Of a stretch of 30,507 bases of DNA, positions 6,001 to 30,118 are shown piece after piece. The stretch is from a virus: the IMG/VR virus record IMGVR_UViG_3300023179_005305, positions 1 to 30,507 of that record; one strand, given 5' to 3'. Below the pieces are notes generated by a model, which was given only the letters and a program-made list of their open reading frames with translations, was not told the origin of the DNA and did not search any database. How positions within the stretch are numbered: position 1 is the first letter of the stretch; each line of letters starts with the position of its first letter. A program made the translations under genes and the position numbers.

Positions 6001-7533
6001 TATTCTTGGGGATATTCCTCTTCTTCGCATGGTCAATATGGTGAAGATTTTAGACATTTGCTTCCTGTTAAAACTTTAACAGCTTCTCCTGGAGTATTTG
6101 GAGCAACAGTTATACATCATAAATTCGTTAGTTTGGCTCAAGGTGATTATGTAAATGCAGGAATTACTGAAGAAGGTAGATTATTTACATGGGGTCATCA
6201 AGCTTATGGTGCTTTAGGTCTCGGCGATGCCGAAGATAGGTCTAGCCCTGTTCAAGTAGGTAGTTCTTCTTGGACGGCTGTTGCTACTGGAAGACATCAT
6301 GGTGCTGCAATAAGATCTGATGGTAAGTTGTTTACATGGGGATACAATGGTCATGGAGAATTAGGAGATACTACAACCATAGAAAAAAATTCACCAGTTC
6401 AAATAGGAAATTCTTCTTGGATTGCAGTTCATGCTTCCAGACATTCAACATCCGCTATCAGAGTAGATGGTGCGTTGTTTACATGGGGACAAAATAGTCA
6501 TGGTATTTTAGGTGATAATACTACTATCAGTAAATCTTCACCTGTTCAAATAGGTGGCTCTTCATGGACTTCTGTTAGTATGGGAGCTCACCATATGTTG
6601 GGTTTGATAACTTCGGTTGTTTCAAATTCTCTTTATGCATGGGGTCATAATTCTAATGGTAGTATTGGAGATGCTAGTACTACTGATAGATCTTCCCCAG
6701 TTTTGGTATCTACTAGACCAGGTATTTCATGGAGCTTAATTTCAGCAGGTTCTAATTATTCACTTGCAACAGATCAAAATGGGCGGTTGTGGGGATGGGG
6801 ACATTCTGGTCATGGGTGTTTGGGTCCAACAGTTACTCCTGGAAATAATAGAAGAACCCCGGAGAGATTATTTGTTTCAGGAACTTCTTTATATGATACT
6901 TCTTGGATTTCAATAGGCGCCGGATTACACACTCCTTATGTTATAAGAAGTGGGGATAGAGCCTTGTTTACATGGGGATACAATAATTATGGTACAATGG
7001 GAGATGGTTCAACATTATCCAAGTCAATTCCTGTTCAAATAGGGACATCTGCATGGAAAGCTGTAGGTAAAGGTGTTGGTCATTATTCTCTTGGCGCAAT
7101 TAAGTATGGTGTAGATCAATTCGCAGGAGGACAGTTATGTATGGCAGGACAAATAAATACTTCATATATAGGAAGACCTCCAGGCAATATGGTTCCAACA
7201 GAACAATGGACCATGAATGAAATGCATTCAAATTGGGCAGCAGTAGGATTCGGTCTACACCATGCAGCTGCTTTAACAGCAGACAATAGGCTTTATGTAT
7301 GGGGTCACAACAATCATGGACAAATAGGAGATGGTACTAATAGTTCCGGCTACGAGCAAAGTAATCCAAACTTTGCTTATTCATATGTTAGAGGTACGAT
7401 GACTGGAGGTCAAGATTATCTTCCCCAATATGTACCTAATTTTTGGCCTGGATCTCTTCCAGGTATCCCAGGTAGGTGGTCGGATTTTTCGTTAGGGTAT
7501 AGACATACATTGGCATTGACTGTGGATATATAG
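1..7533 (+). CDS. Giant RCC1-repeat protein (5'-truncated by the window)
   Basis: The reading frame is open from base 1 to the TAG at 7531-7533 and the first 31 codons already encode repeat sequence. The ATG at 94 has no Shine-Dalgarno, so it is internal and the true start lies upstream. I count about 46 repeat units averaging about 54 residues. Each has the RCC1 pattern: an LFAWGxN-like strand, GQLGDGTT, SSPVQIG, SSWTAVSAG, then HT-AIRS. A few units are degenerate (for example LYGWSH and LCMAGQ). RCC1 repeats fold as seven-bladed beta-propellers, so the visible part would give six or seven propellers. The last unit ends HTLALTVDI, a plausible closing strand. No signal peptide, membrane segment or enzyme motif is visible. 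It lies upstream of the neck genes and beside a glycan-modification cassette, so a virion surface or receptor-binding role is the best guess, but this is inference. The fold is sure, the function is not. Confidence 0.93.
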   Translation, partial: GIGDSTTIYRSTPVQIGYDSWTAIAAGNAYSMAVRLGGTLFTWGYNNQYQLGNGTTIQKSSPVQIGSSSWSVVSCGESHSAAISTSGTMYIWGNQSYGEGGTNPPSMLRPVKFLDSTGLDYDKRSWTAMSSGAEMCAAIDSLGRLFTWGYNSDGQLGFNDTINRSSPTQLGSSSWTAVSVGAHYTLAIRSDGSLFAWGRNNIGQLGDGTNINRSSPVQIGGSLWTAVQNVSIDNYDQPRNYAIRSGGTLFGWGYNNGHYLLGDGTTITRSSPVQIGSSSRSWKTIAGGSDFCLGISNSKLYGWSHTESEGSRNYAGDGFNNFNPISIEDAANSQYLEKSWTAISFWKTIISAGMDGTNISQRRGYAIDSTGKLWAWGQNNYGFLGDGTTIDRSSPVQIGAQNWNSVSAGGLHTLAIRSDGYLFAWGSNGHGQLGDGTTIDKSSPVQIGSSLWTSIDASIRRSFAIRSGGSLFAWGQNRYTAWQYIDYPGILGDGDTIDRSSPVQIGSSSWTAVKSGDQFTVAIRAGGTLFAWGHNSSGQLGDGTTIDKSSPVQIGSSSWTAISAGSHHTMAIRSGGTLFTWGHNGHGQLGDETTIDKSSPVQIGYDSWTVIAAGPATSYGNKIISAGQTRIYAWGYGDYPVLGLSSGWSAPGSISSSPREVISSWIKGLNMSGTTVMAAGPNVFGLIYNGNVGDTGQLLTIGHEPYGYVTGRGLWERFPKRISAFNDVNIITAGLHNANMIRSNGVMYSWGYNRHGQAGVNRPPQDYQEWSPVAQTGSWAAVSSARHTTYALDTSGELWVWGRNSMSCYWGCQWAGGLSLGSDSLSYYGEDVSSPTPINNSVYQKAYGTTYYSKLSNSEPNSGQLRMAINNQGELLTVTGTEYYGELGRISNPVIAPMKMGNASWTAVAAGKHHTVGVSNNKLFAWGYNAYGQIGEGSTYHRSYPNQLGNSSWTAVGAGGHHSHAIRSDGKLFGWGRNDYSQVGDYTTINKSSPVMIAGSSWTVVSGGSYNTVGIYAQKAVNWGYNSNGELGKVTNRSSPIQIGNKSWVAVQARKNRSAGISIENRLYTWGENTWGNNGYGSKDNLDSPVAVGGRDFLWKDKLGSLGGSHTAACSKTGTLYVWGSGGTHSGLGFPAWGAWTPAQIGSESWIAVSAGWTHAVAIRADGKLFAWGRQDDGYPRIGDGTTLNKSSPVQIGEDSWSKISANANRTNAIRSDGMLFGWGYNGHGELGDNTTINRSSPVQVGSSSWNAVSAGVHHTLLLARYNASQSTLYAMGNNGYGQLGDGTTIHKSSPVLVDSTGFWKSVSGGYHHTIGLKENNTLYGWGLSTSGEIGDGTTINKSSPVQIGSSSYNMISAGHHSNYARDSSIAFDKGILWAWGHNPYSIQGDGGYSNISSPVILGQGGAKTSTQAIPSIVGKVNEPGNKVKYWKQISSGQDHTLAIRSDNLLFAFGRNSLHLLGDGTTVDRQSPVQIGSSSWIAVAAGQYHSVAIRSDGMLFAWGEGKQRNNYQGATGEGENNKEPWTIKGSFPFETSWRSISVGQNFMLGIRSDGILYSWGHNGQGQLGNGTTIDSSSPVQIGSSSWIVAEAGDNFSLGIRSGGTLFAWGHNNHGQLGDSTTIAKSSPVQIGSSSWVAVKGSANFSIGIRAGGTLFTWGYNGHGQLGDNTTINKSSPVQIGSSSWTAVDAAIAGNFSLALRSGGTLFAWGHNSSGQLGDSTTIDKSSPVQIGSESWIIISAGHAGTAAIRNDYKLFTWGTNSHGQLGDSTTIAKSSPVQIGNSSWISVGAGHHHTLGVTSGGSLFSWGYNADSRLGDNTTISRSSPVQVGSFSWISVNAGGDASAGITSDNKINTWGNTGHGKLGRMPGNSVPTQISYRSFASIAAGRHHNLAIDTQGKLWAWGYGGSGNIGDGEYSNRSSLVQIGSSSWTILFKGGSTSYASFAIRSGGTLFAWGDNGSYTLGDNTTIAKPSPVQMGTSSWIAVGSGVSNVMAITSAGKLYSWGYSSSSHGQYGEDFRHLLPVKTLTASPGVFGATVIHHKFVSLAQGDYVNAGITEEGRLFTWGHQAYGALGLGDAEDRSSPVQVGSSSWTAVATGRHHGAAIRSDGKLFTWGYNGHGELGDTTTIEKNSPVQIGNSSWIAVHASRHSTSAIRVDGALFTWGQNSHGILGDNTTISKSSPVQIGGSSWTSVSMGAHHMLGLITSVVSNSLYAWGHNSNGSIGDASTTDRSSPVLVSTRPGISWSLISAGSNYSLATDQNGRLWGWGHSGHGCLGPTVTPGNNRRTPERLFVSGTSLYDTSWISIGAGLHTPYVIRSGDRALFTWGYNNYGTMGDGSTLSKSIPVQIGTSAWKAVGKGVGHYSLGAIKYGVDQFAGGQLCMAGQINTSYIGRPPGNMVPTEQWTMNEMHSNWAAVGFGLHHAAALTADNRLYVWGHNNHGQIGDGTNSSGYEQSNPNFAYSYVRGTMTGGQDYLPQYVPNFWPGSLPGIPGRWSDFSLGYRHTLALTVDI
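4836..4889 (+). repeat. 54-nt exact direct repeat, copy 1 (inside RCC1 gene)
   Basis: This stretch is identical base for base to 5283-5336. It covers the GQLGDSTTIAKSSPVQ part of one RCC1 unit, in the same reading frame. The identity includes synonymous positions, which suggests recent duplication or gene conversion rather than protein-level selection alone. Confidence 0.9.
5283..5336 (+). repeat. 54-nt exact direct repeat, copy 2 (inside RCC1 gene)
   Basis: Second copy of the 54-base direct repeat at 4836-4889, offset by 447 bases. Nearby units share shorter near-identical blocks, for example around 1286-1340, 1610-1664 and 1756-1810, which differ at only a few positions. Confidence 0.9.
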
Positions 7534-7538
7534 TATAG

Positions 7539-7563
7539 TATAATTATAATTATAATATTTTTT
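7539..7563 (+). terminator. AT-only palindrome followed by T tract (possible weak terminator)
   Basis: Positions 7539-7554 form a perfect 16-base palindrome made only of A and T, followed by a run of six T at 7558-7563. It is the only gap between the RCC1 gene and the modification cassette. An all-AT stem is weak, so termination would be partial at best. The same stretch contains TATAAT at 7551-7556 that could be a -10 box, but I see no convincing -35 box. Either role is tentative. Confidence 0.25.
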
Positions 7564-7578
7564 GAGGATTTCGGTTTT

Positions 7579-8628
7579 ATGCATAAAATTGATCAACAGC
7601 TTAATTTAATGATTCGTGGAAAATTTGAAGATGGTTGGAAGCTAAGCCAGATAATGCATGAGGAGCATCCAGATGATCTAAGACATCTGTTCAATAGAGG
7701 TTGGTTTTTAATAAATCAAGGAGATCTTCAGGGTGGTTTCCAATCTCTTGAATCGGGGAGATTGTTGGGAGTTTACGGTAGCGGTAGATTAAGGACTAAT
7801 AAACCAATTTGGAATCCTGAAGTCCATCCTATTGAGGGTAAAACTATTATATTAAATATGGAGTGTGGATTTGGTGACCAAATCATTTATGCTAGATTTG
7901 GATCTGAGATAGCTCAGAGAGGTGGTAAATGTATTATGTCCGCTGATGTAAGACTCCATTCATTATTTTCAAGGATTCCTGGTGTTGATAAATGTATAGT
8001 TCAAAAAGACATTCCCAATATAATTCATGATTATTGGATACCGTCTTTCAGTAGTTCATGGCTATTTGGGCACACGTTTGACACTATACCTAATAAACCC
8101 TACATTTTTTCAAATCCTGCAAGTGTAGAAGTTTGGAAAGGTTTAATTAACTCTGAAAAATTTAAAGTAGGTATAAGATGGTCAGGTAGTCCTCTTTTTG
8201 AACACCAACAGTTCAGAATATTTCCTCCTGAGCCCTTAATTGATTTGTGCAAATACAAAGATATTCAATTTTACAGTCTTCAAAGAGACACTGACACCAG
8301 AGAACTACCACCTGATATTATTGATTTACAGCATCTAATTATTTCTTGGGAGGATACAGCCGCCGCCATAGAAAATTTAGATTTAGTAATAACTTCTTGC
8401 ACAAGCGTTGCTCATTTATCCGCTGCTATGGGAAAGCCGACTTGGGTGATTGTACCTTTACTCCCATACCATATATGGGCATTTGGTAAAGGTGAGGATA
8501 TGGAGAATTCTCCATGGTATCCAGAAACTACCAGGGTGTTTAGACAAAAAGTTTTTGGTAATTGGGATTGCACGTTCGAAAAATTAGAAAAAGAATTAGT
8601 TAAACGATTTAATTTAAAAAAGGAATAA
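7579..8628 (+). CDS. TPR-GT-B glycosyltransferase-like protein (heptosyltransferase/OGT-like fold)
   Basis: This 349-residue protein begins with a short tetratricopeptide-like helical part (about residues 1-63), followed by a glycosyltransferase B-type domain. Diagnostic stretches are GFGDQI at 97-102 (nucleotide-fold loop typical of GT9 and related enzymes), GIRWSGSP at 198-205, and TSCTSVAHLSAAMGKPTW at 272-289, the donor-binding region. The tail SPWYPETTRVFRQ at 311-323 is typical of bacterial TPR-containing glycosyltransferases. The family usually has an acidic residue near the TSCTS site, whereas here it is serine/cysteine, so the donor site may be modified. A GAGG Shine-Dalgarno near 7563 supports the ATG. 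It is the first gene of the cassette. The likely role is transfer of a sugar to a protein or glycan in the infected cell. Donor and acceptor are unknown. Confidence 0.82.
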   Translation: MHKIDQQLNLMIRGKFEDGWKLSQIMHEEHPDDLRHLFNRGWFLINQGDLQGGFQSLESGRLLGVYGSGRLRTNKPIWNPEVHPIEGKTIILNMECGFGDQIIYARFGSEIAQRGGKCIMSADVRLHSLFSRIPGVDKCIVQKDIPNIIHDYWIPSFSSSWLFGHTFDTIPNKPYIFSNPASVEVWKGLINSEKFKVGIRWSGSPLFEHQQFRIFPPEPLIDLCKYKDIQFYSLQRDTDTRELPPDIIDLQHLIISWEDTAAAIENLDLVITSCTSVAHLSAAMGKPTWVIVPLLPYHIWAFGKGEDMENSPWYPETTRVFRQKVFGNWDCTFEKLEKELVKRFNLKKE

Positions 8629-8629
8629 A

Positions 8630-9424
8630 ATGAAAACAGTTCATTATGTAGCAGGTCTTCCAAGATCTGGAGCAACATTGATTCTTAACATTCTTAAACA
8701 AAACCCGCTCATTCATGGAGAATCAGTTAGTGGGTTATGTTCTGTCCTCTCAGGAGTTCATTTTAATTGGGATAAAATAGAACAAAATAAAGAGTACTTA
8801 AATCTTGAATCAAAAACTAATGTGCTTAAAGCTATTATAGAAAATTATCACAATCAACATCAGAAAGATATAATTTTTGATAAAGATAGGTTATGGGTTC
8901 AGCACATCAGTTTGTTGGAATATCTGTTCCAAAAACCAGTTAAGATGTTAGTTACAGTTAGGAATCCAGCAGAGGTACTAGCTTCTTTTGAGAAGATTAG
9001 AAAACACAACCCTCTTCATATTACTTTATCTGATGATGAGCTTAAAGAAAATACCTCTGTAGCAGCAAGGGCTTATTTTTTTGCTCAACCTACAGGTAAT
9101 ATGGGAGCTGCTTATCAAGCTCTTAAAGATTCAATCACAATGGGTTATTTGGATAGACTACTGTTTGTAGATTATAATAGATTTTGTAATAGTCCAAAAA
9201 GTCAACTTAAAAGAATATATGATTTTTTTGAGTTACCTTCTTTTGAACATGATTTAGACAATATTAGTCAAGTGGAAACCTATAACGATCAAGCAACTTT
9301 ACTTCCTAATCTTCATAAGATTAAACCAAGTCTTCAAAAAACTACAGTTAATGTTGTTGAATATTTAGGTTTAGATTTATATCAACAATATAATAGAGAA
9401 ATTTTCTGGGATGCTTGGATTTAA
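8630..9424 (+). CDS. Sulfotransferase family protein (PAPS-dependent)
   Basis: This 264-residue protein carries the two PAPS-binding signatures of sulfotransferases. The 5'-phosphosulfate loop is GLPRSGATLI at residues 9-18, near the N terminus as expected. The 3'-phosphate-binding segment is TVRNPAEVLASF at 109-120, with R111 and S119 in the usual places. The family transfers sulfate from PAPS to hydroxyl groups of sugars, proteins or small molecules. The acceptor cannot be read from sequence. AAGGA precedes the ATG, and the gap to the previous gene is one base. An APS-kinase-like gene at 12804 could supply PAPS. No signal peptide or membrane anchor is seen, so it should act in the cytoplasm, unlike Golgi sulfotransferases. 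A kinase is unlikely because the motif lacks GKS/T. Confidence 0.85.
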   Translation: MKTVHYVAGLPRSGATLILNILKQNPLIHGESVSGLCSVLSGVHFNWDKIEQNKEYLNLESKTNVLKAIIENYHNQHQKDIIFDKDRLWVQHISLLEYLFQKPVKMLVTVRNPAEVLASFEKIRKHNPLHITLSDDELKENTSVAARAYFFAQPTGNMGAAYQALKDSITMGYLDRLLFVDYNRFCNSPKSQLKRIYDFFELPSFEHDLDNISQVETYNDQATLLPNLHKIKPSLQKTTVNVVEYLGLDLYQQYNREIFWDAWI

Positions 9425-9430
9425 TTAATA

Positions 9431-10102
9431 ATGAATATCTTTAATATGTGTTCTATTCCTGTTTTTTCTATAGAATTATCAGGACATGAGAAAATAACTA
9501 AAAAAGAATATGATGTTTTAACTCAATTTAAAATGGAAAAAAGAGATAGTGAATTAAAACAAAGTACTATGCTTTCTGAATCCTCTTGTATTCTAGAAAA
9601 CGAAAATTTAAAAAATATTAAATTTACAAAGCAGAAATACATAGATTATTATCTCAAAAACATTCTTAAAATAAAGAACAATTTTTCTATGACTAGTTCA
9701 TGGTTAACTATGAATTATAATGGTTCTTCCCATGAACGTCATTCTCATGGAAATGTTATTTTAAGCAGTGTATTATATTTTTGTGAAGATCTAAAAGAAG
9801 ACGTAATGTCTAATTTTTATATTAGTCAGAACGCTTTGAAAGATGTATTTAAAACTTTCCAATTCACATACGATTTATCAGATTATAATGAGTATAATTC
9901 TCCTTCTCTTACGTTAGCTACTAAAACAAATTTTTTAGTAATATTTCCAGCTTGGATGCTTCATGGGTCTGAGCCAGCAGAAGGACCTTTCAAAAGATAT
10001 TGTATAGGTTCTAATTATTTTTTAAATGATCATGTTGGTTCGGGCTATCACTCACTTCAAATTAATTCAAAACTAAAAGACACTTCTTTACAAATGGGGT
10101 AA
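9431..10102 (+). CDS. Putative 2OG-Fe(II) oxygenase (TIGR02466/PF13759-like)
   Basis: This 223-residue protein resembles the phage and marine bacterial 2-oxoglutarate/Fe(II) oxygenases of the TIGR02466 type. The metal-site region is SSHERHSHGN at 99-108 (H104 and H106 are candidates), followed by the strand SSVLYF. The distal histidine is H178 in FPAWMLHGSEP, and R189 (KRYCIGSNYF) is the likely 2-oxoglutarate anchor. Such enzymes hydroxylate or otherwise oxidise a protein side chain, sugar or small molecule. The substrate here is unknown. It starts six bases after the sulfotransferase gene. It is one of three dioxygenase-like domains in the cassette, each from a different subfamily. Confidence 0.75.
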   Translation: MNIFNMCSIPVFSIELSGHEKITKKEYDVLTQFKMEKRDSELKQSTMLSESSCILENENLKNIKFTKQKYIDYYLKNILKIKNNFSMTSSWLTMNYNGSSHERHSHGNVILSSVLYFCEDLKEDVMSNFYISQNALKDVFKTFQFTYDLSDYNEYNSPSLTLATKTNFLVIFPAWMLHGSEPAEGPFKRYCIGSNYFLNDHVGSGYHSLQINSKLKDTSLQMG

Positions 10103-10105
10103 ATT

Positions 10106-10729
10106 ATGGATGAAATCATTGTTCCGGAACATAAAAAAATAAATTTAGGTTGCGGATTTAAAAAAATGTTAGATTATTGGAATGTAGATATTGAAAAGAA
10201 ATGCAATCCTGATCAACAATTAGACTTAGAAACTTTTCCATGGCCTTACACTGACAGTTATTTTACAAATATTTGTGCTGATAATATTCTAGAACATTTG
10301 GGTCAAGATCCTAAAGTATTTGCTAAGGTAATTCAAGAAATGTATAGGATAAGTGAGGATCAATGTGAATGGGATATTATATATCCTCACCATCGAAGTG
10401 ATCTATTTTACGATGATTTCACTCATGTAAGACCTCTCACTGCCAAAACATTTTTGATGTTTGATCAGAAAAGTAATTTTGAATCTGTAGCTAAGAAGGT
10501 AAGTGATAGTACATTTGGTTTTTACTATGGCGTTGATATTGAAATAGTTGAAGTAAAATATAATTTAACTGGTCTTTTTCAAGAACAAGTAAACAATGGT
10601 ATGATAGGAAGTAGGCAACTTGATTATAATTTAAATACTGTTAACAACGTTTGTGAGACTGTAATTTTAAAAGCCAAAGTTCACAAACCAGGAAGGTATA
10701 TTAATTGGTTCAATAGCGTCAATAAATGA
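10106..10729 (+). CDS. Class I SAM-dependent methyltransferase
   Basis: A small Rossmann methyltransferase of 207 residues. Motif I is INLGCGFK at 12-19, an acidic residue at the end of beta-2 (NVDIE, D28) should bind the SAM ribose, and NILEHL at 60-65 matches the post-motif region of the Methyltransf_11 type. PHHRSDLFYDDFTHVRP in the middle is typical of the cyanophage and marine versions. The target may be a sugar or a small acid, and the sequence does not show which. The ATG is three bases after the previous stop, and the gene overlaps the next by four bases (ATGA), which indicates translational coupling. Confidence 0.82.
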   Translation: MDEIIVPEHKKINLGCGFKKMLDYWNVDIEKKCNPDQQLDLETFPWPYTDSYFTNICADNILEHLGQDPKVFAKVIQEMYRISEDQCEWDIIYPHHRSDLFYDDFTHVRPLTAKTFLMFDQKSNFESVAKKVSDSTFGFYYGVDIEIVEVKYNLTGLFQEQVNNGMIGSRQLDYNLNTVNNVCETVILKAKVHKPGRYINWFNSVNK

Positions 10730-11481
10730 GTGATATAATTTTTACTTCTGATGTTTTTTACATAGAAGATAAGCCAAGAAAGAATGTTCTTGTAGAAACT
10801 GATCAGGGTATGATGATTGTGAATAGATTTGATTCAAATCATCATCAAGTCGGCCATAGTATATGGCTACTCGATCATGGAAATTGCAATACAGTAGAAG
10901 TAAATGATTGTTATCAAGTAATTAAACATATTGAAAATCCTATAATTTTTGATGTTGGAGCTAATATAGGCACTATTTCTATTTGGCTTTCTAAAATGTT
11001 TAAAACTGGTCATGTTTATAGTTTTGAGGCTCAGAGACAGATATTTTATCAGTTAGCAGGTAATATTTCCATTAATAACTTGTATAATATCGATGTTTTC
11101 AATTTAGCTGTGGGATCTGAAAACGGTTATATTAATGTCAAAGAACCTAATTATTTCATTAATAATGATTTTGGTATTTTTAGTTTAATTGAGGAAAAGT
11201 TACCTACCACTAATAAAAATTTAGTAGTTCCATTAATTACTCTTGACACATTTGTTAAAGAGTATGAAATACCTAAAGTTGATTTGTTGAAGATTGATGT
11301 AGAAGGGATGGATATTAATGTGTTAAAAGGTTCTATAAATATTTTAGAAAAATATCAACCTATAATTTATGTTGAGCATTTTGATAACATTACTTCAAAC
11401 TTAACTAATCTTAAAAACTTTTTATCTAATTTTAACTACAATTTTGAAACAAGAAAGAACAACTTATTATGTCTGAAATAA
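10726..11481 (+). CDS. FkbM-family SAM-dependent methyltransferase
   Basis: This 251-residue protein fits the FkbM (Methyltransf_21) family. SAM motif I is IFDVGANIGT at 74-83, the beta-2 acidic residue is in YSFEAQ at 98-103, and the family hallmark KIDVEGMD followed by VLKG lies near residues 189-200. FkbM enzymes methylate hydroxyl groups of sugars or polyketides. In polysaccharide gene clusters they commonly O-methylate glycans. The start overlaps the previous stop as ATGA, and the stop lies inside the next gene. It supports reading the cassette as glycan building and capping. Confidence 0.9.
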   Translation: MSDIIFTSDVFYIEDKPRKNVLVETDQGMMIVNRFDSNHHQVGHSIWLLDHGNCNTVEVNDCYQVIKHIENPIIFDVGANIGTISIWLSKMFKTGHVYSFEAQRQIFYQLAGNISINNLYNIDVFNLAVGSENGYINVKEPNYFINNDFGIFSLIEEKLPTTNKNLVVPLITLDTFVKEYEIPKVDLLKIDVEGMDINVLKGSINILEKYQPIIYVEHFDNITSNLTNLKNFLSNFNYNFETRKNNLLCLK

Positions 11482-12284
11482 ACTTTCATTACGCATATCA
11501 ACTTTGTGATGTTGCTAGCAGAGAAAACAAACCAAGAATTTGTGGAGACGATAGAACACTACTTTCTAAAAAAAGTGTTCAATCTTTTTTTGAAAGTCTC
11601 AAACAGTTTAAAGAAAATTATCCTGAAACTAAACATCATATATGTTTTTTTAACGATAGATCAACAAACGAATTAGTTGAATTCGTTGAGACGATTATAA
11701 AAAAATATCAAAATGATCAAATTATAATTAAGTTTCAAGATAACAATGAACCTGGTATTCTCAGTGGTATTAAGCAATGTTATATGTGGCTTCAACTACA
11801 TGGTAAAGATTTAGTTTATCAAGTTCAGGATGATTATTTATTTTACCCATCAGCGTTGACTGAAATGTATGAAGTTTTTCATCAAATGCAAAAAGAAATT
11901 AAATACGATGTAATAGTTAGTCCATTCAACGATTTTTGGTTGTGGTTAGCTATTTACAGGAATTCATGTACTCCCAGAACAGTGATAGTAGGTAAAAAAA
12001 GGTATTGGATTCAATACTATGATATGAGTTGTTCTTTTATGACGTCTCATGATCAGTTTTCCAAGCACTGGGATTTATATCACAGATTTTTTGAGTTACT
12101 TGAAAACAATGATCCTGATTTAGAGAGGAGTTCATTAAACTTTATGTTGACACAAAGAGGTGTTTTAGGATTGATACCTGTAAATAATCTTGCATATCAC
12201 ATGCAAACTGAACTGGAAGAAGATCCTCACATTGATTGGCGTCCGTTATGGGAGAGTATAGATGTCTCGCTCACAACAAATTAA
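11469..12284 (+). CDS. Putative GT-A-type glycosyltransferase
   Basis: A 271-residue protein with a nucleotide-sugar transferase look. An N-terminal alpha/beta part (HHICFFNDRST at about 56-66) is followed by VYQVQDDYLFYP at 116-127, where D121-D122 form a DxD-like metal-binding site. A second half is rich in Trp and Tyr. There is no signal peptide or transmembrane helix. It overlaps the FkbM gene by 13 bases and the next gene by 23. It resembles phage-borne GT2-like enzymes, but the family match is weaker than for the genes at 15656 and 17364, so sugar transfer is likely rather than certain. Confidence 0.65.
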   Translation: MSEINFHYAYQLCDVASRENKPRICGDDRTLLSKKSVQSFFESLKQFKENYPETKHHICFFNDRSTNELVEFVETIIKKYQNDQIIIKFQDNNEPGILSGIKQCYMWLQLHGKDLVYQVQDDYLFYPSALTEMYEVFHQMQKEIKYDVIVSPFNDFWLWLAIYRNSCTPRTVIVGKKRYWIQYYDMSCSFMTSHDQFSKHWDLYHRFFELLENNDPDLERSSLNFMLTQRGVLGLIPVNNLAYHMQTELEEDPHIDWRPLWESIDVSLTTN

Positions 12285-12804
12285 ATTTATACAAAACGTC
12301 AAAGATTCTTTTCCTGATTTTTTCACTAACAAAACAATACTAGAATTTGGTAGTCATGATTTCTTTGAAGTAGCTCCTACTAGAAGTTTTTTTCATCAAT
12401 GTGCTTATATTGGAGTTGATGTAGGTCCAGGAGAAGGGGTAGATATTCAGTGCATTGCTCATGAATATAACATGCCCGATGGGACATTCGATACAGTAAT
12501 CAGCAGAGAAATGTTTGAGCATGATCCTCATTGGGATAAATCATTTTTAAATATGGTCAGACTATGTAAACCAAAAGGATTAATATTTTTTACTTGTGCT
12601 ACAACTGGAAGAGTAAAACATGGTACTCTCTACAGTGATCCTCATGGAAGTACAAATACAGTAGATTTAGGATGGGAACATTATAAAAATCTGACGGAAA
12701 AAGATTTTAGAAGTATATTAGAATTTGATCAGGTTTTCGATTCTCATCAATTTTTAACAGACAGATTTTCATATGAGTTGTTTTTTTGGGGAATAAAAAA
12801 ATAA
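12262..12804 (+). CDS. Class I SAM-dependent methyltransferase (Methyltransf_11-like)
   Basis: A 180-residue compact methyltransferase. Motif I is the slightly unusual ILEFGSHD at 26-33, in which the normal GxGxG is reduced to one glycine. The ribose-binding acid is D53 in YIGVDVG. FDTVISREMFEHDP at 76-89 is the motif IV to post-motif region. The last visible strand is YELFFWGIKK. GGAGAG about ten bases upstream of the ATG provides a ribosome site inside the previous gene. The stop overlaps the next start by one base (TAATG). The substrate is unknown, and the neighbours point to a sugar or glycan intermediate. Confidence 0.8.
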   Translation: MSRSQQIKFIQNVKDSFPDFFTNKTILEFGSHDFFEVAPTRSFFHQCAYIGVDVGPGEGVDIQCIAHEYNMPDGTFDTVISREMFEHDPHWDKSFLNMVRLCKPKGLIFFTCATTGRVKHGTLYSDPHGSTNTVDLGWEHYKNLTEKDFRSILEFDQVFDSHQFLTDRFSYELFFWGIKK

Positions 12805-13643
12805 TGGAAAAGATCTTGATTATGGGTCTTCCTGGAGCAGGTAAGACATATTTTGCTGAGAGACTAAAGAAATACTTAGAAAATAATTCTAAACCTGATT
12901 TATCTAAAATTCATTCTGACTCACCTTTTCCTAATTTGCAGGCCAGAGTGGATTGGTTTAATGCTGATGATGTTAGGAGAAAGTTCAATGATTGGGACTT
13001 TTCTAAAGAAGGTAGAATCAGACAGAGTATAAGAATGTTTGATTTTGCTATGTCTTGCAAAGGTGATTATGTTATCTGTGATTTTGTAGCTCCTTTACCT
13101 GAAATGAGAAATAATTTTAAAGCAGATTGGACGATTTGGATTGATAGTATTGATCAAGGTAGATATGAGGATACAAACAAAATATTTGTTCCCCCTGAAA
13201 TTTATGATTTTAGGGTTACAGAACAAAATGCAGAATATTGGGTACCTGTTGTTGGATCCAGGATTTTATATAAACAAAGACGTCCAGTATTTAATTGGAA
13301 AAAAGAAACAGTTCAAATGCTTGGTAGGTGGCAACCATGGCATGCTGGTCACAGAGCTTTATTTGAAAGAGCTATTGAAAAGACCGGACAAGTTTGCATT
13401 ATGATAAGAGATTGCCAAGGTTGGAATGGATCTAATCCTTTTGAAATAGATAAAGTAAAATATTTTATTAGTAGAGATTTAGATCCTTTATTTCAAGGTC
13501 AATATATAATTCAAGTGGTACCTAATATTGTAAATGTTACTTACGGTAGAGATGTCGGATATAAAATAGAGCAAGAAGTTTTTGATGGTGAAATTCATTC
13601 CATATCTGCAACCAAGATAAGGAAACAAATGGGGCTAGAATAA
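12804..13643 (+). CDS. APS-kinase-like protein fused to HIGH-type nucleotidylyltransferase domain
   Basis: A 279-residue two-domain protein. The N-terminal half has a P-loop GLPGAGKT at 8-15, NADDVRRKF at 53-61 (compare DGDNVR of APS kinases), CDFVAPLPEMR at 92-102 (compare the FISP-R segment) and IDSI at 113-116. These together match the CysC/adenylylsulfate kinase layout, with an extra loop of about 25 residues before DDVR. The C-terminal half has GRWQPWHAGH at 174-183 and ISATKIR at 267-273, the two signatures of cytidylyl/NMN-adenylyltransferases of the HIGH superfamily. ATP sulfurylase also belongs to that superfamily, but its usual domain is far longer than these 110 residues. An in-frame TTG exists at 12786, but the ATG at 12804 overlaps the previous stop (TAATG) and places the P-loop at the normal distance, so I chose it. 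It probably makes PAPS or another activated intermediate for the cassette. Confidence 0.8.
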   Translation: MEKILIMGLPGAGKTYFAERLKKYLENNSKPDLSKIHSDSPFPNLQARVDWFNADDVRRKFNDWDFSKEGRIRQSIRMFDFAMSCKGDYVICDFVAPLPEMRNNFKADWTIWIDSIDQGRYEDTNKIFVPPEIYDFRVTEQNAEYWVPVVGSRILYKQRRPVFNWKKETVQMLGRWQPWHAGHRALFERAIEKTGQVCIMIRDCQGWNGSNPFEIDKVKYFISRDLDPLFQGQYIIQVVPNIVNVTYGRDVGYKIEQEVFDGEIHSISATKIRKQMGLE

Positions 13644-13644
13644 A

Positions 13645-14343
13645 TTGAAACCTTTTGATTACTGGGTGTTTGATGATTTTTTAGATATTGATTTGGCTAA
13701 AAAACTTTCTAGTGATTTTATCGATTATAATGATCCTAATTGGTTTTGCTACAATAATCCACTAGAGAATAAAAAAACTTTGAATAACTGGTATTTTTTT
13801 CCTCCATCTACTTACCAGTTTATGTCTTATTTAAATAGTCAACCATTTATAAGTTTTATATCTGAGGTAACCGGTACTGGGCAACTATACCCTGATATTG
13901 GATTACATGGTGCTGGATGGCATATTCATGGGAGAGGTGGAAAATTAAATGTTCATTTTGATTATTCCATACACCCAAAATTACATCTTCAAAGAAAACT
14001 AAACATTATAATTTACTTGACAGAAGATTGGAATCCAGAATGGGGTGGTAATTTGGAATTCTGGTCACATGATCCAATAACTAAAAGACCTAAAGATAAA
14101 GCGGAAGTCATAGATAATATTTTTAATCGTGCTGTGATATTTGACACCACTCAAAATTCGTGGCATGGTTTCCCTGATTCTTTAACGTGCCCGGATGGAA
14201 TTTACAGAAAAAGTATCGCAATGTATTATTTGACAAAACCTCCTGAAAACGTCGACAAAAGAAAAAGAGCTCTGTATTCTCCATCTAAACAACAATTGAA
14301 CGACCCTAAAATAGAAGAATTAATTATTCAGAGAGCAACATGA
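13645..14343 (+). CDS. Prolyl-4-hydroxylase-like 2OG-Fe(II) oxygenase, TTG start
   Basis: This 232-residue dioxygenase shows a complete metal and cosubstrate set: H104 and D106 in NVHFDYS, distal H174 in SWHGFPD, and R188 in YRKSIAMYYL. The flanking LNIIIYLTEDWNPEWGGNLEFW strand pair is typical of the P4H-like family, whose members hydroxylate proline or other protein side chains or nucleoside/sugar substrates. Homology begins within the first residues (KPFDYWVFDDFL), and no ATG lies between the previous stop and that sequence. TTG at 13645 is therefore the likely start, one base after the preceding stop, which suggests translation by coupling. It overlaps the next gene by ATGA. Confidence 0.87.
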   Translation: MKPFDYWVFDDFLDIDLAKKLSSDFIDYNDPNWFCYNNPLENKKTLNNWYFFPPSTYQFMSYLNSQPFISFISEVTGTGQLYPDIGLHGAGWHIHGRGGKLNVHFDYSIHPKLHLQRKLNIIIYLTEDWNPEWGGNLEFWSHDPITKRPKDKAEVIDNIFNRAVIFDTTQNSWHGFPDSLTCPDGIYRKSIAMYYLTKPPENVDKRKRALYSPSKQQLNDPKIEELIIQRAT

Positions 14344-15659
14344 GTCAAATATTAAATATTTTGGATAAGTTTGACATTAATGGTCACAATAAACCTGGTG
14401 GTACGGATAAAAACACCAACCATTCTTATGTTGAGGTATATGAAGAAGCGCTTGGTAGATTTATAGGAAAGCAAGGGTCTTTATTGGAGATCGGAATTCA
14501 ATATGGTGGATCTACACTTCTGTGGCAGGAACTACTGAAGGACTTTAAGATCTGTGCTGTTGATACCATAAATCAAGTTCATGATAAAATTCTTTCGTTG
14601 ATTGATCAACAAAGAGTTAGAATTAAATTTACTGATGCTTATCTTGAAGAAACATTTGAAAATATAAAAGTTTTATATCCTAATGGTTTTGATGTTATTA
14701 TAGATGATGGACCTCATAAGATAAAGTCTCAAATAAAATGTGTTGAGATGTACTCAGAATTATTAAAAGTTAACGGAGTTTTAATTATTGAAGATATTCA
14801 AAACTTTGATGACATAGATCTCATTATACAAAGTATTCCTAAGTCTGATTTGTATGAATATGATGTTAAAGTTTATGATTTAAGATCTAAAAAAGAAAGA
14901 TATGATGATGTTATTTTAATAATTACAAAAAAAGATAAAATTCCTGGAAATAATATTGCAGTGTTTTATCACCTTGGTCAATTTGGTCAATGGCAAAGAT
15001 TATTTCAAGAGCAAATGAATTCTTTGGTTATTAGTGGATTGTATAGCGCTGCAGATTTTATCTATATTGGGGTTAATGGAGAAGATCCTCTTCCTTTTAA
15101 TTTGCCTAAATTTAAAGTCAAATATAATAACAATAAAATATTAGAAGCAGACACTATCAAAGCTCTTTATGATTTTTGTAATGAAAATAAAGTTCACAGA
15201 GTGTTTTATTTTCACTCAAAAGGATCTACACAAGAAGATAAATCATTTAGGTTAAATGTAGAAGGATGGAGATTATACTTAGAGTATTTTAATATTCATC
15301 AATGGAGAGATTGTGTAGATCTTCTACAAGGCTACGATACGGTAGGAACAGAGTATAGTTTCGAAACCGGATTAGTAAATCAAGAAACAGGTAGCACTGA
15401 TTGGGAAACCAATCCTCATTATGCTGGTAATTATTGGTGGGCCAACTCTAGTTACATAAACAAACTAGATCCTAACTATCTTTACAGAACAGATAAAGGA
15501 TGGGATAGGTATAGAAGTGAATTTTGGATAGGTACTGGAGATCCAAAATATTATAACTTTTATCACACATCTATATTCAGTAAATATAAAGAATGGGGGG
15601 TTTCTCCTTTAGATTATCTAAAAAAAAACTTGATCGATTGGAATCGGGTAACAAAATGA
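14340..15659 (+). CDS. Methyltransferase-glycosyltransferase fusion
   Basis: A 439-residue two-domain protein. Residues 1-200 form a class I methyltransferase of the Methyltransf_24/MycE-like type: SLLEIGIQYGGST at 47-59, AVD at 73-75, FDVIIDDGPHK at 117-127 and VLIIEDIQ at 147-154. From about 204 (NIAVFYHLGQFGQW) a second domain begins, with FIYIGVNG at 240-247, VFYFHSKGS at 288-296, HYAGNYWWANSSYI at 360-373 and a C-terminal aromatic WIGTGD. This second domain occurs in phage and polysaccharide gene clusters and behaves like a GT-A-type glycosyltransferase, which I recall as a family look rather than a named enzyme. The start overlaps the previous stop by ATGA, and the 3' end overlaps the next gene the same way. 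The fusion suggests methylation and sugar transfer on the same glycan. Confidence 0.75.
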   Translation: MSQILNILDKFDINGHNKPGGTDKNTNHSYVEVYEEALGRFIGKQGSLLEIGIQYGGSTLLWQELLKDFKICAVDTINQVHDKILSLIDQQRVRIKFTDAYLEETFENIKVLYPNGFDVIIDDGPHKIKSQIKCVEMYSELLKVNGVLIIEDIQNFDDIDLIIQSIPKSDLYEYDVKVYDLRSKKERYDDVILIITKKDKIPGNNIAVFYHLGQFGQWQRLFQEQMNSLVISGLYSAADFIYIGVNGEDPLPFNLPKFKVKYNNNKILEADTIKALYDFCNENKVHRVFYFHSKGSTQEDKSFRLNVEGWRLYLEYFNIHQWRDCVDLLQGYDTVGTEYSFETGLVNQETGSTDWETNPHYAGNYWWANSSYINKLDPNYLYRTDKGWDRYRSEFWIGTGDPKYYNFYHTSIFSKYKEWGVSPLDYLKKNLIDWNRVTK

Positions 15660-17371
15660 TTAAAAATAAAAAAGCCAAATTTGTAATGATAACTATGTTT
15701 AAAAATGAGGCTACTACTATCAAAAGAATGTTAGAATCATGTTACAAATATATTGATTATTATGTAATTCAAGACAATGGTTCTACCGATGGAACTCCTG
15801 AAATAGTAGAAGATTTTTTTAAAGATAAAAATATTCCTGGATATATTTACAAGTGTGAAGAAGGTTGGGTTGGATTCGGATGGAATAGAGATCATTTACT
15901 TCAAAAATGTCAATCTACCGATCATGGGTGTGATTGGATTATAAAAATGGATTGCGATGAAACGTTGGAAATTGATAATGATTTTGATTGGGGTGTGTTT
16001 GATGATAAAAATTTACACGCTTTTCATGTCACTGCTATTCAAAGCGGAACTCTTTATCAAAGAGCATGGATATGGAATGCTAGATTAAAGTGGAAATTCA
16101 ATCATGATACTGCTCACGAAACTATTGAACTTGTAACAGAAAATATTGGAGCAAATTTTAGAAGATATAATCTTCCAAGATCTTTTAGGCATATTGGACA
16201 TTTTTCAGATGGTGAGAGTTGGAAAGTACCAACTAAGTATGTATCTGATGCTCTTAAACTTGAAGAAAAGTTAATTAGAGAAAATACAATGCTTTCAGAT
16301 TTGTATCATTTTTGGTACATTGGTAAAAGTTATTACGACGGATTTAGAGAAAAGGCTTTACCTCTTAAAGAAAGTCATAACAAAGAAATGGCAAGAAGAT
16401 GTATTTTCAATTTTACTGAATTTATTAATCATACTCATAATTTTAATCAAACCGGTAGAGCTGATAGGTTAGATGAGATGGCCTATTATGCAATGATGCT
16501 AATAGGAAATTGTTATAATTTCCTAGAAGAAAATGACCAAGCAATTTATTTTCTTGAAAAAGCTGAAGAATTTTGTCCTTTAAGAAACGAACATCTTGTA
16601 AACTTAGCAGCAATATATCAAAACATTCAGCAATACGATAAAATGCTTTCAGTTACAGAAAGATTAATAGATCAAAATAGAAAAAACCCCTTCCCTGATT
16701 TTAGTTTTATTATTGATGCTAATAGTTACTATGATACAGGTAACTATGTTTACTTACTCCACGAAGAAGCATTGAGTCATACAAGACCAACATCCATTTT
16801 TAAGGTTAATACCAACATGAAAAAAAGACTTTGGGTAGTAGATAACTTTTATCAAAATCCTGATGAAGTTAGAAAATTTGCTTTAGGTGTAGAGTATAAT
16901 GAAGATATTCAATGGTATAAAGGAATGAGATCCAAAGAGCAGTACCTTTTTAATGGTTTAAAAGAAGCACTAGAAAGTGTTATGGGTATTAAGTTAAAAC
17001 CTTTAGAAACACACGGTCAATGTGGAAGATTCCAAATATGTAGATCTCAAGAACAAATTGTATATCACAACGATTCCCAAAAATATGCTGCTATGGTATA
17101 TCTTACACCTGATGCTCCTGTAGAATCAGGTACTATGCTGTTAAGGTCAAAAATAACTGGAGCAAGGCATATTTCTGACCCTAATTTTGACGATTCTTTC
17201 AAAGGTGGTTTTTACGACAAGACAAAATTTGAAGTTGTGGATAATGTAGGAAACATTTATAATAGGTTGGTTATTATGGATTCTCATTGTATTCACGCTG
17301 CTTCTCAATACTTCGGCCAAAGTAAAGAAGACTCTAGACTAACTCACTTATTTTTCTTTGATAATGAATAA
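15656..17371 (+). CDS. GT2 glycosyltransferase-TPR-2OG oxygenase-like tri-domain protein
   Basis: A 571-residue protein with three parts. Residues 8-200 are a GT2-type transferase: ITMFKNEATTIKRMLES at 12-28, IQDNGSTDGTPEI at 38-50 and the DxD motif DCD at 99-101. Residues 210-345 are helical and TPR-like (AIYFLEKAEEFCP at 296-308). Residues 390-571 resemble DUF6445-type dioxygenases: LWVVDNFYQNPDEVRKFAL at 392-410, H471-N-D473 as the HxD pair, H544 or H547 as distal histidine, and R561 for 2-oxoglutarate. An in-frame ATG at 15593 would add 21 residues encoded inside the previous gene. The ATG at 15656 forms an ATGA overlap and starts right before the GT2 fold, so I prefer it. The fusion suggests one polypeptide that hydroxylates and glycosylates, or two steps of the same pathway. 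Substrates are unknown. Confidence 0.83.
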   Translation: MIKNKKAKFVMITMFKNEATTIKRMLESCYKYIDYYVIQDNGSTDGTPEIVEDFFKDKNIPGYIYKCEEGWVGFGWNRDHLLQKCQSTDHGCDWIIKMDCDETLEIDNDFDWGVFDDKNLHAFHVTAIQSGTLYQRAWIWNARLKWKFNHDTAHETIELVTENIGANFRRYNLPRSFRHIGHFSDGESWKVPTKYVSDALKLEEKLIRENTMLSDLYHFWYIGKSYYDGFREKALPLKESHNKEMARRCIFNFTEFINHTHNFNQTGRADRLDEMAYYAMMLIGNCYNFLEENDQAIYFLEKAEEFCPLRNEHLVNLAAIYQNIQQYDKMLSVTERLIDQNRKNPFPDFSFIIDANSYYDTGNYVYLLHEEALSHTRPTSIFKVNTNMKKRLWVVDNFYQNPDEVRKFALGVEYNEDIQWYKGMRSKEQYLFNGLKEALESVMGIKLKPLETHGQCGRFQICRSQEQIVYHNDSQKYAAMVYLTPDAPVESGTMLLRSKITGARHISDPNFDDSFKGGFYDKTKFEVVDNVGNIYNRLVIMDSHCIHAASQYFGQSKEDSRLTHLFFFDNE

Positions 17372-18629
17372 TTACAAATTTAGCATTATTACACCTACCC
17401 ATAGTGTAAAGAATATACCATTTCTTTTAGAGTTATATCATAGTATTAAATCTCAAACTTACTCCAACTGGGAATGGGTATTGTATCTAAATGGAAAAAT
17501 ATTAACTTCTGATCTACCTAATGAAATTTCTTATGATCCTAAAGTTATTGTCTACGAATATAGAGGAGATAATACCAATGTAGGTTATATGAAGAACTTA
17601 GCTTTTAATGCTGGAGAAGGTGATATTTTAGTTGAAGCTGATCACGATGATTTGCTAACAGAAAATTGTTTAGAAAAATTAAATATTGCTTTTCAAGATC
17701 AGCAATATGGATTTGTGTATAGTGATAACGCAACTTATCACATGGAAGATAAATTTACTCCTTATGGTACTCCATGGGGATGGACTCATAGGATGTACCA
17801 ACACAAAGATAAACTATTGTTTGCTATGAATAGTTTTGAGCCTTCTAGTCATTCAGTTGGTTATATTTGGTATGCTCCAGATCACGTAAGGTCTTGGAGA
17901 TCATCTGTATATAAAGATATAGGAGGACATAACCCCGAACTTTCAATTTGTGATGATCACGAGTTGATGATAAGAACTTATTTAAAAACAAAATTTAAAA
18001 GAATACCTGAAGTACTTTATATTTACAGAGTTACTGGAGATAATACTTGGCTAGAAAGAAACAAAGCTATACAAACAACTACAGTAGAATTGTTTAATCA
18101 ATATGCTCAACAATTAGCTGAAAAGGATGCTGATGACAATAAGTTGTTAAAGGTTGATTTGGGTGGAGGAATGAACGCTAGACAAGGTTATCTTACAATA
18201 GATCAAGCAGACGCCAACATTAACTGTGATCTTAACGAAGGTATTCCTTTGCCTGATAATAGTGTAGGTGTAATTAATGCTAGCCATGTAATTGAACATC
18301 TTCATGATAAAACTAAGACTATGAAAGAAATTCACCGTGTACTTGCACACGGTGGTTGGGCGTTTATTGAGGTACCTAGTACAGATGGTAGAGGAGCTTT
18401 TCAGGATCCCACTCATGTTAGTTACTGGAATGAAAACAGTTTCTTATATTATACTAATTCTTATCTTGCCAATTTTATTAGAAATAAAGACATTAGATTT
18501 CAAGAATTTAGAAGAGAGACTTGGTTTCCAAATGAATGGATGAAAAATATGAATGTTTGTGTGACAACTTGGTGGGGAGTTGCAAATAAACCAGAAGGAA
18601 GAAGACTACCTCACAGACTGGAAATTTAA
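17364..18629 (+). CDS. GT2 glycosyltransferase-methyltransferase fusion
   Basis: A 421-residue protein. The N-terminal half is a classic GT2 domain: FSIITPTHSVKNIPFLLELY at 6-25, GYMKNLAFNAGEGDILVEAD at 74-93, metal site DHDD at 93-96, and CDDHELMIR at 196-204. From about 260 a class I methyltransferase follows: LLKVDLGGGMN at 261-271, ID at 279-280, LPDNSVGVINASHVIEHL at 296-313 and a late GGWAFIEVPS strand. An upstream TTG at 17358 is in frame, but the ATG at 17364 overlaps the previous stop region by eight bases and fits the fold. It is the last gene of the cassette. The domain order is the mirror image of the fusion at 14340. The likely role is to add a sugar and methylate it or a neighbouring sugar. 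Confidence 0.87.
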   Translation: MNNYKFSIITPTHSVKNIPFLLELYHSIKSQTYSNWEWVLYLNGKILTSDLPNEISYDPKVIVYEYRGDNTNVGYMKNLAFNAGEGDILVEADHDDLLTENCLEKLNIAFQDQQYGFVYSDNATYHMEDKFTPYGTPWGWTHRMYQHKDKLLFAMNSFEPSSHSVGYIWYAPDHVRSWRSSVYKDIGGHNPELSICDDHELMIRTYLKTKFKRIPEVLYIYRVTGDNTWLERNKAIQTTTVELFNQYAQQLAEKDADDNKLLKVDLGGGMNARQGYLTIDQADANINCDLNEGIPLPDNSVGVINASHVIEHLHDKTKTMKEIHRVLAHGGWAFIEVPSTDGRGAFQDPTHVSYWNENSFLYYTNSYLANFIRNKDIRFQEFRRETWFPNEWMKNMNVCVTTWWGVANKPEGRRLPHRLEI

Positions 18630-18666: not shown

Positions 18667-19410
18667 ATGACTATTCCAACAACAAGAGCTGAATTTAAAG
18701 AATATTGCTTACGTAAGCTAGGTAAACCTGTTATTGAAATTAACGTTGAAGATGATCAAATAGATGATAGGGTAGACGAATCTTTAAAATATTACTATGA
18801 TTACCATTTCGATGGTTCAGAAAAAATATATTATAAGCATGAAATAACTGCTAATACAAAAATAGACAAATACATCACATTGCCAGAAAACATTATAGGT
18901 GCTATAAGAGTTTTTCAGATAGGTGATCCTTCTGTACGATCAAGTGATATGTTTAATATTAGATATCAAATAGCTTTAAATGATCTTTATCAAATGACTA
19001 CAGTTTCTCTAGTTCCATATTATATGGCAATGCAACATTTAGGAACTATTACTGAATTATTAGTTGGACAACAACCCATAAGATACAATAGGCATACTAA
19101 TAAATGCTATATTGATATGGATTGGACAAAAATTGATGTAAATGAATTTTTATTAATAGAAGCTTATCAAGTTATTGATCCTGCAACCTACACAGATGCA
19201 TGGAGTGACAGGTGGCTTCAACACTACTGTACAGCCAAAATTAAATATCAATGGGGAACAAACCTTACCAAATTTACAGGAATGCAGCTTCCAGGTGGAG
19301 TTCAATTTAATGGAGAAAAAATATTAGATGATGCAAAGGCGGAAATTGATAAGTTAGAACAAGAAATGATTAGTAGTTACTCGTTACCAGTAATGGATAT
19401 GATTGGATGA
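18667..19410 (+). CDS. gp13: Neck protein gp13 (T4-like)
   Basis: This 247-residue protein is a T4-type gp13 neck protein, recognised from its opening TIPTTRAEFKEYCLRKLGKP, the VDESLKYYYDYHFDG segment around 35-50, the DMFNIRYQIALNDLY region near 95-110, and the conserved C-terminal SDRWLQHYCTAKIKYQWG and ILDDAKAEIDKLEQE. It is shorter than T4 gp13 (309 residues), as in marine relatives. gp13 and gp14 form the neck that closes the DNA-filled head and joins it to the tail. It starts the morphogenesis block and is followed three bases later by gene 14. Confidence 0.93.
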   Translation: MTIPTTRAEFKEYCLRKLGKPVIEINVEDDQIDDRVDESLKYYYDYHFDGSEKIYYKHEITANTKIDKYITLPENIIGAIRVFQIGDPSVRSSDMFNIRYQIALNDLYQMTTVSLVPYYMAMQHLGTITELLVGQQPIRYNRHTNKCYIDMDWTKIDVNEFLLIEAYQVIDPATYTDAWSDRWLQHYCTAKIKYQWGTNLTKFTGMQLPGGVQFNGEKILDDAKAEIDKLEQEMISSYSLPVMDMIG

Positions 19411-22962: not shown

Positions 22963-22970
22963 TATAAATA
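22963..22970 (+). promoter_or_regulatory. Late promoter motif TATAAATA (distal) before gene 18
   Basis: An exact T4 late -10 octamer, just after the gene 17 stop. It would start transcription near 22977, about 40 bases before the gene 18 ATG. Confidence 0.5.
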
Positions 22971-27311: not shown

Positions 27312-27319
27312 TATAAATA
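27312..27319 (+). promoter_or_regulatory. TATAAATA motif before gene 67
   Basis: An exact late octamer in the 25-base gap after gene 20. The predicted start would fall within the TTGGAG ribosome site at 27321-27326, which makes it doubtful as a working promoter for gene 67. It could serve downstream genes. Confidence 0.3.
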
Positions 27320-30110: not shown

Positions 30111-30118
30111 TATAAATA
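30111..30118 (+). promoter_or_regulatory. Late promoter TATAAATA for gene 23
   Basis: An exact T4 late -10 octamer, ending 30 bases before the capsid gene ATG. The predicted RNA start near 30125 leaves AAGGGG (30135-30140) as ribosome site, eight bases before the ATG. T4 gene 23 likewise has its own strong late promoter. Confidence 0.7.

Follow-up and report, generated by a model that had tools for sequence, protein, structure and literature searches.

An RCC1-linked module of predicted glycosyltransferase, sulfotransferase and methyltransferase genes in T4-like phages

Introduction

TibC is encoded beside the adhesin that it modifies, and the ligands of its iron-finger motif are cysteines. 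Both this motif and the glycosylation of an adhesin by the enzyme have been described (PMC4358343). In T4-like phages, glycosyltransferases and other variable genes are known to gather between VrlC and the neck genes (PMC7029224).

RCC1-repeat proteins of phages carry annotation as chromosome-condensation factors and have been proposed to order DNA (PMC7247149). Members of one such family, PHROG 4219, were detected by mass spectrometry in virions of phage W70 (PMC11370258), and GAP_001 of GAP32, another RCC1-like protein, is likewise present in virions (PMC5259590). For the sulfotransferases of phages, no role is known (PMC10580990). Here, we analyze a viral sequence of 30,507 nucleotides (the window; IMG/VR record IMGVR_UViG_3300023179_005305), in which an RCC1 gene is followed by genes for enzymes of these kinds.

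Results

Layout of the window

Twelve plus-strand open reading frames (G1–G12) fill positions 7579-18629, with a giant RCC1-repeat gene on the left and a T4-like gp13 on the right. Modules A and B, named in the list, are the two gene groups distinguished below.

1..7533, plus strand: giant RCC1-repeat protein, 2479 aa or longer, with its 5' end beyond the left edge of the window (Pfam RCC1)
7579..8628, plus strand: G1, TPR and GT9-fold glycosyltransferase by predicted fold; module A core
8630..9424, plus strand: G2, PAPS-type sulfotransferase (Pfam Sulfotransfer_1, 1.4e-15); module A core
9431..10102, plus strand: G3, 2OG-Fe(II) oxygenase (PF13759, 1.6e-10; PHROG 81, 5e-23); accessory, occasional
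10106..10729, plus strand: G4, SAM methyltransferase (PHROG 6636, 1.9e-11); module A core
10726..11481, plus strand: G5, FkbM methyltransferase (PF05050, 5.4e-24; TIGR01444, 8e-33); module A, frequent
11469..12284, plus strand: G6, GT2-like glycosyltransferase (PF00535, 9.2e-6, above cut-off); module A accessory
12262..12804, plus strand: G7, SAM methyltransferase (PF13489, 3.7e-9; PHROG 32762, 1.6e-52); accessory
12786..13643 (ATG at 12804 likelier), plus strand: G8, APS-kinase-like and NMNAT-like fusion (profile matches)
13645..14343, plus strand: G9, 2OG-Fe(II) oxygenase (PF13640, 1.3e-16); module B
14340..15659, plus strand: G10, methyltransferase with a C-terminal domain (PF13578, 3.8e-7); module B
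15593..17371 (ATG at 15656 likelier), plus strand: G11, GT2, TPR-like and DUF6445 putative 2OG domain; module B
17358..18629 (ATG at 17364 likelier), plus strand: G12, GT2 and methyltransferase (PF00535, 2.8e-10; PF08241, 3.1e-11); module B
18667..19410, plus strand: gp13 head-tail adaptor, right edge of the variable region (PHROG 211, 2.7e-43)

From 18667 on, the window carries gp13, gp14, gp15, gp16, gp17, gp18, gp19, gp20, gp21 and the start of gp23, and its gene content thus makes the T4-like identity of the phage certain. Judged by gp13, Stenotrophomonas phage DLP_6 is the nearest named phage (68% identity), and a nucleotide search for near-identical named phages returned short matches only.

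The earlier note on this DNA had described twelve genes that overlap or nearly touch, and the plus-strand reading frames do tile the region, with spacings of +6 to about -23 bp when the likelier ATG starts of G8, G11 and G12 are taken. Since gp13–gp17 overlap as much as G1–G12, such packing is ordinary for the phage, and we dropped short spacing as the mark of a special cassette; translational coupling is nothing unusual in this phage. Nearly all of the domains that had been counted were recovered. The five methyltransferases lie in G4, G5, G7, the N-terminus of G10 and the C-terminus of G12, the sulfotransferase is G2, and the three 2OG-dioxygenase-like domains are in G3, G9 and the C-terminus of G11. 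The last of these is a DUF6445 domain (PF20043, 4.8e-7, beside PF00535 at 1.1e-11) with a plausible 2OG pattern, HxD...H...R, read from the sequence. GT2 domains make up G6 and the N-termini of G11 and G12, and G1 is a glycosyltransferase by fold. The fifth glycosyltransferase-like domain, the C-terminal part of G10, lacks family support; the Pfam search gave no match for this part.

The RCC1 protein

Pfam RCC1 matches 30 stretches of the giant protein (E 5e-265), and its best PHROG match is PHROG 4219 (E 3.5e-169). In relatives, the RCC1 gene is preceded by tail fibres and a tail-fibre assembly chaperone (PHROG 4912, 7e-14), and in the Synechococcus phage S-SRM01 three RCC1 genes directly follow the baseplate and long-tail-fibre genes. 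From gene position and family membership, we propose that RCC1 is a virion protein of the tail-fibre region. As a search bait, the unusual C-terminal RCC1 segment yielded only four loci, and an alignment to the repeat consensus was used instead. Many phages have RCC1 proteins without any G1 match, so RCC1 does not require module A.

Predicted fold of G1 and the other module A enzymes

The AlphaFold model of G1 (pLDDT 90.5) was compared with the PDB using VIA-align. The best matches were GT9 enzymes, with Z scores of 16–18 over 230–249 residues (18 for a GT9 enzyme, 17 for WaaF, 16 for WaaC and TibC). G1 scores under the Pfam cut-off for GT9, and because a search of solved-structure sequences with the G1 profile found TPR proteins and weak chance matches only, the assignment to GT9 is based on the predicted fold. 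G1 is, by this modelled fold, a GT9 protein, and sugar transfer is its predicted activity.

Residues G99-D100, which follow the first strand, are invariant in 20 G1-family sequences; D100 may correspond to D110 of TibC, the N-terminal catalytic Asp of the WaaC and TibC type. C274 is the only invariant cysteine of the family. Since the TibC-type set of iron-finger cysteines is missing from the G1 family, we do not class G1 as a TibC-type member. The C-terminal motif of GT9 enzymes usually holds an Asp; in G1 this motif reads SCTSxAH, without the Asp.

G2 has the features of a PAPS-dependent sulfotransferase, a 5' phosphosulfate loop and the Arg and Ser of the 3' phosphate site: across 54 sequences, conservation of the GLPRxGxT loop, R111 and S119 is 95% or higher. 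G4 is fused to G1 in many phages, and the fused homologue matches Pfam Methyltransf_11. Among the matches listed, G5 lies downstream of G1 in 23/49 loci and G6 is present in 18/49. G3 was found in few relatives, and G3, G6 and G7 occur occasionally among the loci compared. Pfam and PHROG domain searches of module A for a DNA-modifying domain found none, and DNA modification by module A was dropped as a candidate.

Linkage of G1, G2 and G4 to RCC1

IMG/VR was the source of the loci, which were gathered with each of five genes in turn as the anchor (G8, gp13, G2, RCC1 and G1); a divergent G1 clade was scanned separately. Profiles built on the window and its relatives served to annotate every locus. 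Each scan comprises the best 80 matches, which for G1 means the best 80 of 290 candidates, and the counts are of loci and not of independent events.

The gene order RCC1-G1-G2-G4-(G5)-(G6)-(G8)-gp13 recurs many times. With G1 as the sole bait, the best 80 of 290 candidates held 59 distinct G1 genes, with RCC1 in 57/59 loci and immediately upstream of G1 in 55/59. Both loci lacking RCC1 begin inside G1 at a contig end, and two others (L322 and L335) place RCC1 downstream of a rearranged cassette. The pairing is also kept in the rearranged orders of L179 and L282. In the divergent clade, where sulfotransferase and GT9 are joined in one protein, RCC1 was present in 77 of the best 80 loci, often on both sides; the three exceptions have only 2–75 bp of contig ahead of the first cassette gene. 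As a background, only 3/31 of the listed gp13-anchored loci that extend 6 kb or more upstream had RCC1. The association of RCC1 with G1 gave a Fisher p of 9e-4 in this gp13-anchored set and of 6e-12 in the G8-anchored set.

Single reading frames of ~570–670 aa join G1-G4, G1-G2 and G2-G1, and these fusions tie the enzymes to one pathway. Linkage and fusions show that the enzymes share a function with one another and with RCC1. Over 24 loci, G1, G2 and G4 have pairwise divergences that correlate with one another at 0.86–0.89 but with gp13 at 0.37–0.50, whereas gp13 and gp15 correlate at 0.82; median divergence is 0.30–0.33 for the cassette proteins versus 0.49–0.55 for gp13 and gp15. Because G1, G2 and G4 diverge together and apart from gp13, the module travels from phage to phage as a unit.

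The earlier note had suggested that the cassette be compared for co-occurrence with RCC1 genes, and this comparison was strongly positive for G1, G2 and G4. Its choice of RCC1 as a candidate substrate is thus well grounded, through the co-occurrence, gene fusions and co-divergence of these three genes.

Two cultured phages carry the module. In BUCT-ZZ01, an isolate on Synechococcus elongatus PCC 7942, a G1-G4 fusion lies directly behind the RCC1 gene (UTS52180.1), the locus has no annotated sulfotransferase, and the module and gp13 are separated by a VrlC-like gene. The second, S-SRM01 (L353:8329-20125), which grows on Synechococcus sp. KCZYC6, has its three RCC1 genes (PQC13_gp335, gp337, gp344) interleaved with genes for a TPR-GT9 protein, a 2OG oxygenase, a sulfotransferase and glycosyltransferases; a nucleotide-sugar epimerase comes next.

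Loci L354–L432 represent the divergent clade, a large one, in which the single sulfotransferase-GT9 protein sits between small RCC1 genes of ~380 aa. RCC1 and G1 homologues were also seen together in six contigs of bacterial MAGs (L278–L283; Nomurabacteria, Bacteroidetes, Bdellovibrionales and others). At least one of these, L279, is a T4-like phage contig (gp13–gp17) binned with a bacterium.

G8 as a possible source of sulfate donor

The G8 profile matches a solved APS kinase (8.5e-10) and an NMN-adenylyltransferase-like domain (3e-8). Fold matches to the G8 model, of moderate confidence (pLDDT 74), are headed by APS kinases. Profile and fold both point to an APS kinase domain, with the corresponding activity predicted. 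The APS-kinase/nucleotidylyltransferase fusion of the earlier note is therefore present, with a second domain that matches NMN adenylyltransferases and not ATP sulfurylase. The fusion is highly conserved, with at least 593 relatives in viral contigs (L003 is among the loci that have it), and the family is widespread in phages without the cassette.

Among the matches listed, a sulfotransferase accompanies G8 in 30/34 gp13-containing loci versus 9/46 others. G8 homologues also have other neighbours, a QueD-like gene and GTP cyclohydrolase I in L014 and L025 and a NADAR gene in L004, with no sulfotransferase seen at these loci. These neighbours weaken G8 as proof of sulfate activation, and its true substrate may be other than APS. 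Supply of the sulfate donor PAPS by G8 is possible, as judged from its domains and from the sulfotransferases that accompany it.

Promoter motifs

The T4 late motif TATAAATA occurs in the window at 22963 and 22988 (both just upstream of gp18), at 27312 (just upstream of the 27332 reading frame) and at 30111 (just upstream of gp23). The same motif was found in 10/56 RCC1-G1 spacers of relatives, versus 1.7 +/- 1.3 in shuffles, which would suit late timing of module A. It is absent from the RCC1-G1 spacer of the window itself. The end of RCC1 and this spacer hold a near-perfect sigma-70-like site at 7516-7544 (TTGACT-17-TATAAT, 11/12), which could mean that the cassette is expressed separately or earlier.

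G9–G12 form a second module

Most loci carry RCC1-G1-G2-G4-(G5)-(G8) without G9–G12. Among the gp13-bearing loci, from overlapping scans with many loci cut by contig ends, 83 combine RCC1 and G1 with no intact G12, and 3 have both. In the two loci nearest to the window by gp13 among the matches listed (L088 and L089, 83%), G9–G12 lie directly behind a collagen-like tail fibre, with neither RCC1 nor G1–G8. Since each group is found without the other, gene content divides the region into two separable modules, A (RCC1, G1, G2 and G4, often with G5 and G8) and B (G9–G12). The comparison of gene content and order that the earlier note had called for thus links module A to RCC1 and sets G9–G12 apart.

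Module B most likely acts on another fibre, for example the collagen-like one that precedes G9–G12 in these close relatives. Modification of a collagen-like fibre is an attractive idea, because module B pairs oxygenases and GT2 domains beside a Gly-X-Y fibre, but with two loci behind it the support is weak. The arrangement at L088:630-3878 and L089:1669-4398 is suggestive of collagen-style hydroxylation and glycosylation. A homologue of the G11 C-terminal domain (DUF6445) occurs alone on the minus strand upstream of gp13 in L109, L141, L145, L159 and others, as it does in many phages; the PHROG of this homologue (1644) carries the label minor coat protein.

Discussion

We consider it probable that the RCC1 tail-fibre-region virion protein is glycosylated by G1, sulfated through G2 and methylated by G4 and G5, with module B acting separately. 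The region would be the one in which a T4-like phage encodes its host-recognition (tail-fibre) proteins, and the GT9-fold G1 would attach a sugar to the RCC1 β-propeller protein. G2 would then sulfate, and G4, often with G5, methylate, either the sugar or the RCC1 protein itself; G6, G7 and G3 would elaborate the glycan in some phages, and G8 may supply PAPS. This would leave a tail-fibre, whisker or adhesin protein with a glycan that bears sulfate and methyl groups, a placement that follows from RCC1 as a virion protein of the tail-fibre region. The domains, the fold of G1, the linkage, the fusions, the co-divergence and the modularity come from the data; RCC1 as the acceptor, the identity of the sugar, the order of the steps, late timing and the effect (adsorption or protection) are what we infer. 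The RCC1 proteins without a G1 match, the Asp missing from the C-terminal motif of G1 and the sigma-70-like site in the window weigh against this reading. The broader proposition, that RCC1 fibre proteins with a dedicated sulfated and methylated glycan constitute a widespread, undescribed system of swappable receptor-binding glycoproteins, we regard as evenly balanced.

The strongest rival is that the enzymes alter the host glycan bound by an RCC1 adhesin, so that infected cells or debris stop binding sister phages. Tight linkage to RCC1 is predicted here as well, and because receptor-altering enzymes would also travel with an RCC1 adhesin, linkage and fusions leave RCC1 unproven as the acceptor. 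Glycosyltransferases in this region of marine T4-like phages have been interpreted as O-chain modifiers that prevent co-infection (PMC7029224), and the sigma-70-like site upstream of the window G1 would suit early expression. However, domain searches of the cassette found no lipid-linked sugar transferase, flippase or ligase, and its proteins are without a membrane segment (highest 19-residue hydropathy 1.24). The late promoter motif is enriched in RCC1-G1 spacers, and in both fold and gene pairing the nearest functional precedent is TibC, which glycosylates an adhesin. We favour virion modification over host modification on the grounds of the missing membrane and lipid-carrier enzymes, the late motifs and the TibC precedent, and consider receptor modification unlikely.

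That these are auxiliary glycan genes which happen to lie in a hypervariable region and are functionally unrelated to RCC1 is distinctly improbable. The gathering of glycosyltransferases and variable genes between VrlC and the neck genes (PMC7029224) would fit it, but RCC1-G1 pairing is near-universal in two clades, rearranged orders included, against the 3/31 background, and the enzymes are fused. For G1, G2 and G4 this explanation is largely refuted; for G3, G6, G7 and module B it is possible. Still more improbable is an internal, DNA-condensing RCC1 protein, with enzymes that modify RCC1 or DNA inside the cell or capsid: the suggestion that phage RCC1 proteins order DNA (PMC7247149) rests on the protein name, in relatives the RCC1 gene comes after tail-fibre genes and a fibre chaperone, and module A is without a DNA-modifying domain. 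Equally hard to maintain is the proposal of the earlier note that all twelve genes form one pathway on one substrate, for which the whole set in the window and L006 and its tight spacing would speak, but which L088, L089 and the many loci with module A only contradict.

If RCC1 proteins are indeed glycosylated by their linked enzymes, the pairing offers both phage RCC1 proteins and phage sulfotransferases a concrete, testable role, the construction and decoration of a protein of the tail-fibre region. Glycosyltransferases in the host-recognition regions of T4-like phages would then be taken by default to modify the virion itself and no longer to change the host O-antigen.

Comparison with known systems

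Glycosyltransferases in this region (PMC7029224), virion glycosylation (as cited in PMC12619734) and dedicated adhesin glycosyltransferases such as TibC are already known. No report of RCC1-glycosyltransferase pairing in phages was found in the literature searched, which left subscription journals outside its coverage; nor did that literature contain a dedicated RCC1-GT9-sulfotransferase-methyltransferase module like the widespread one seen here.

The RCC1 proteins of W70 and of GAP32-like coliphages (PHROG 4219) share with the proposed system their place in virions, but no glycosyltransferase has been reported with them and they are annotated as DNA condensation proteins. The host recognition cluster of pelagimyophages and cyanomyophages likewise occupies a structural region beside the neck genes and combines tail fibres with glycosyltransferases; the neck boundary and fibre region are seen in the window, and VrlC lies beyond it. 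In the accessible text on that cluster (PMC7029224), neither RCC1 pairing nor a sulfotransferase was found, and the enzymes are read as modifiers of host O-chains. Mycobacteriophages also use phage-encoded enzymes to decorate virion proteins (Freeman 2023, cited in PMC12619734). There, the C-termini of capsid and tail tube proteins are decorated, whereas here the target would be a tail-fibre-region protein and the predicted decoration includes sulfate and methyl groups.

The autotransporter heptosyltransferases TibC and AAH resemble G1 in their GT9-type fold (Z about 16 for G1 versus TibC) and in the pairing of a dedicated glycosyltransferase with a repeat-rich adhesin, a part that RCC1 would play here as the presumed adhesin and G1 substrate. 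G1 differs from them in sequence (about 8% identity) and in having no iron-finger cysteine set. It is further set apart by its N-terminal TPR helices, by its sulfotransferase and methyltransferase partners and by its proposed substrate, a phage RCC1 propeller protein.
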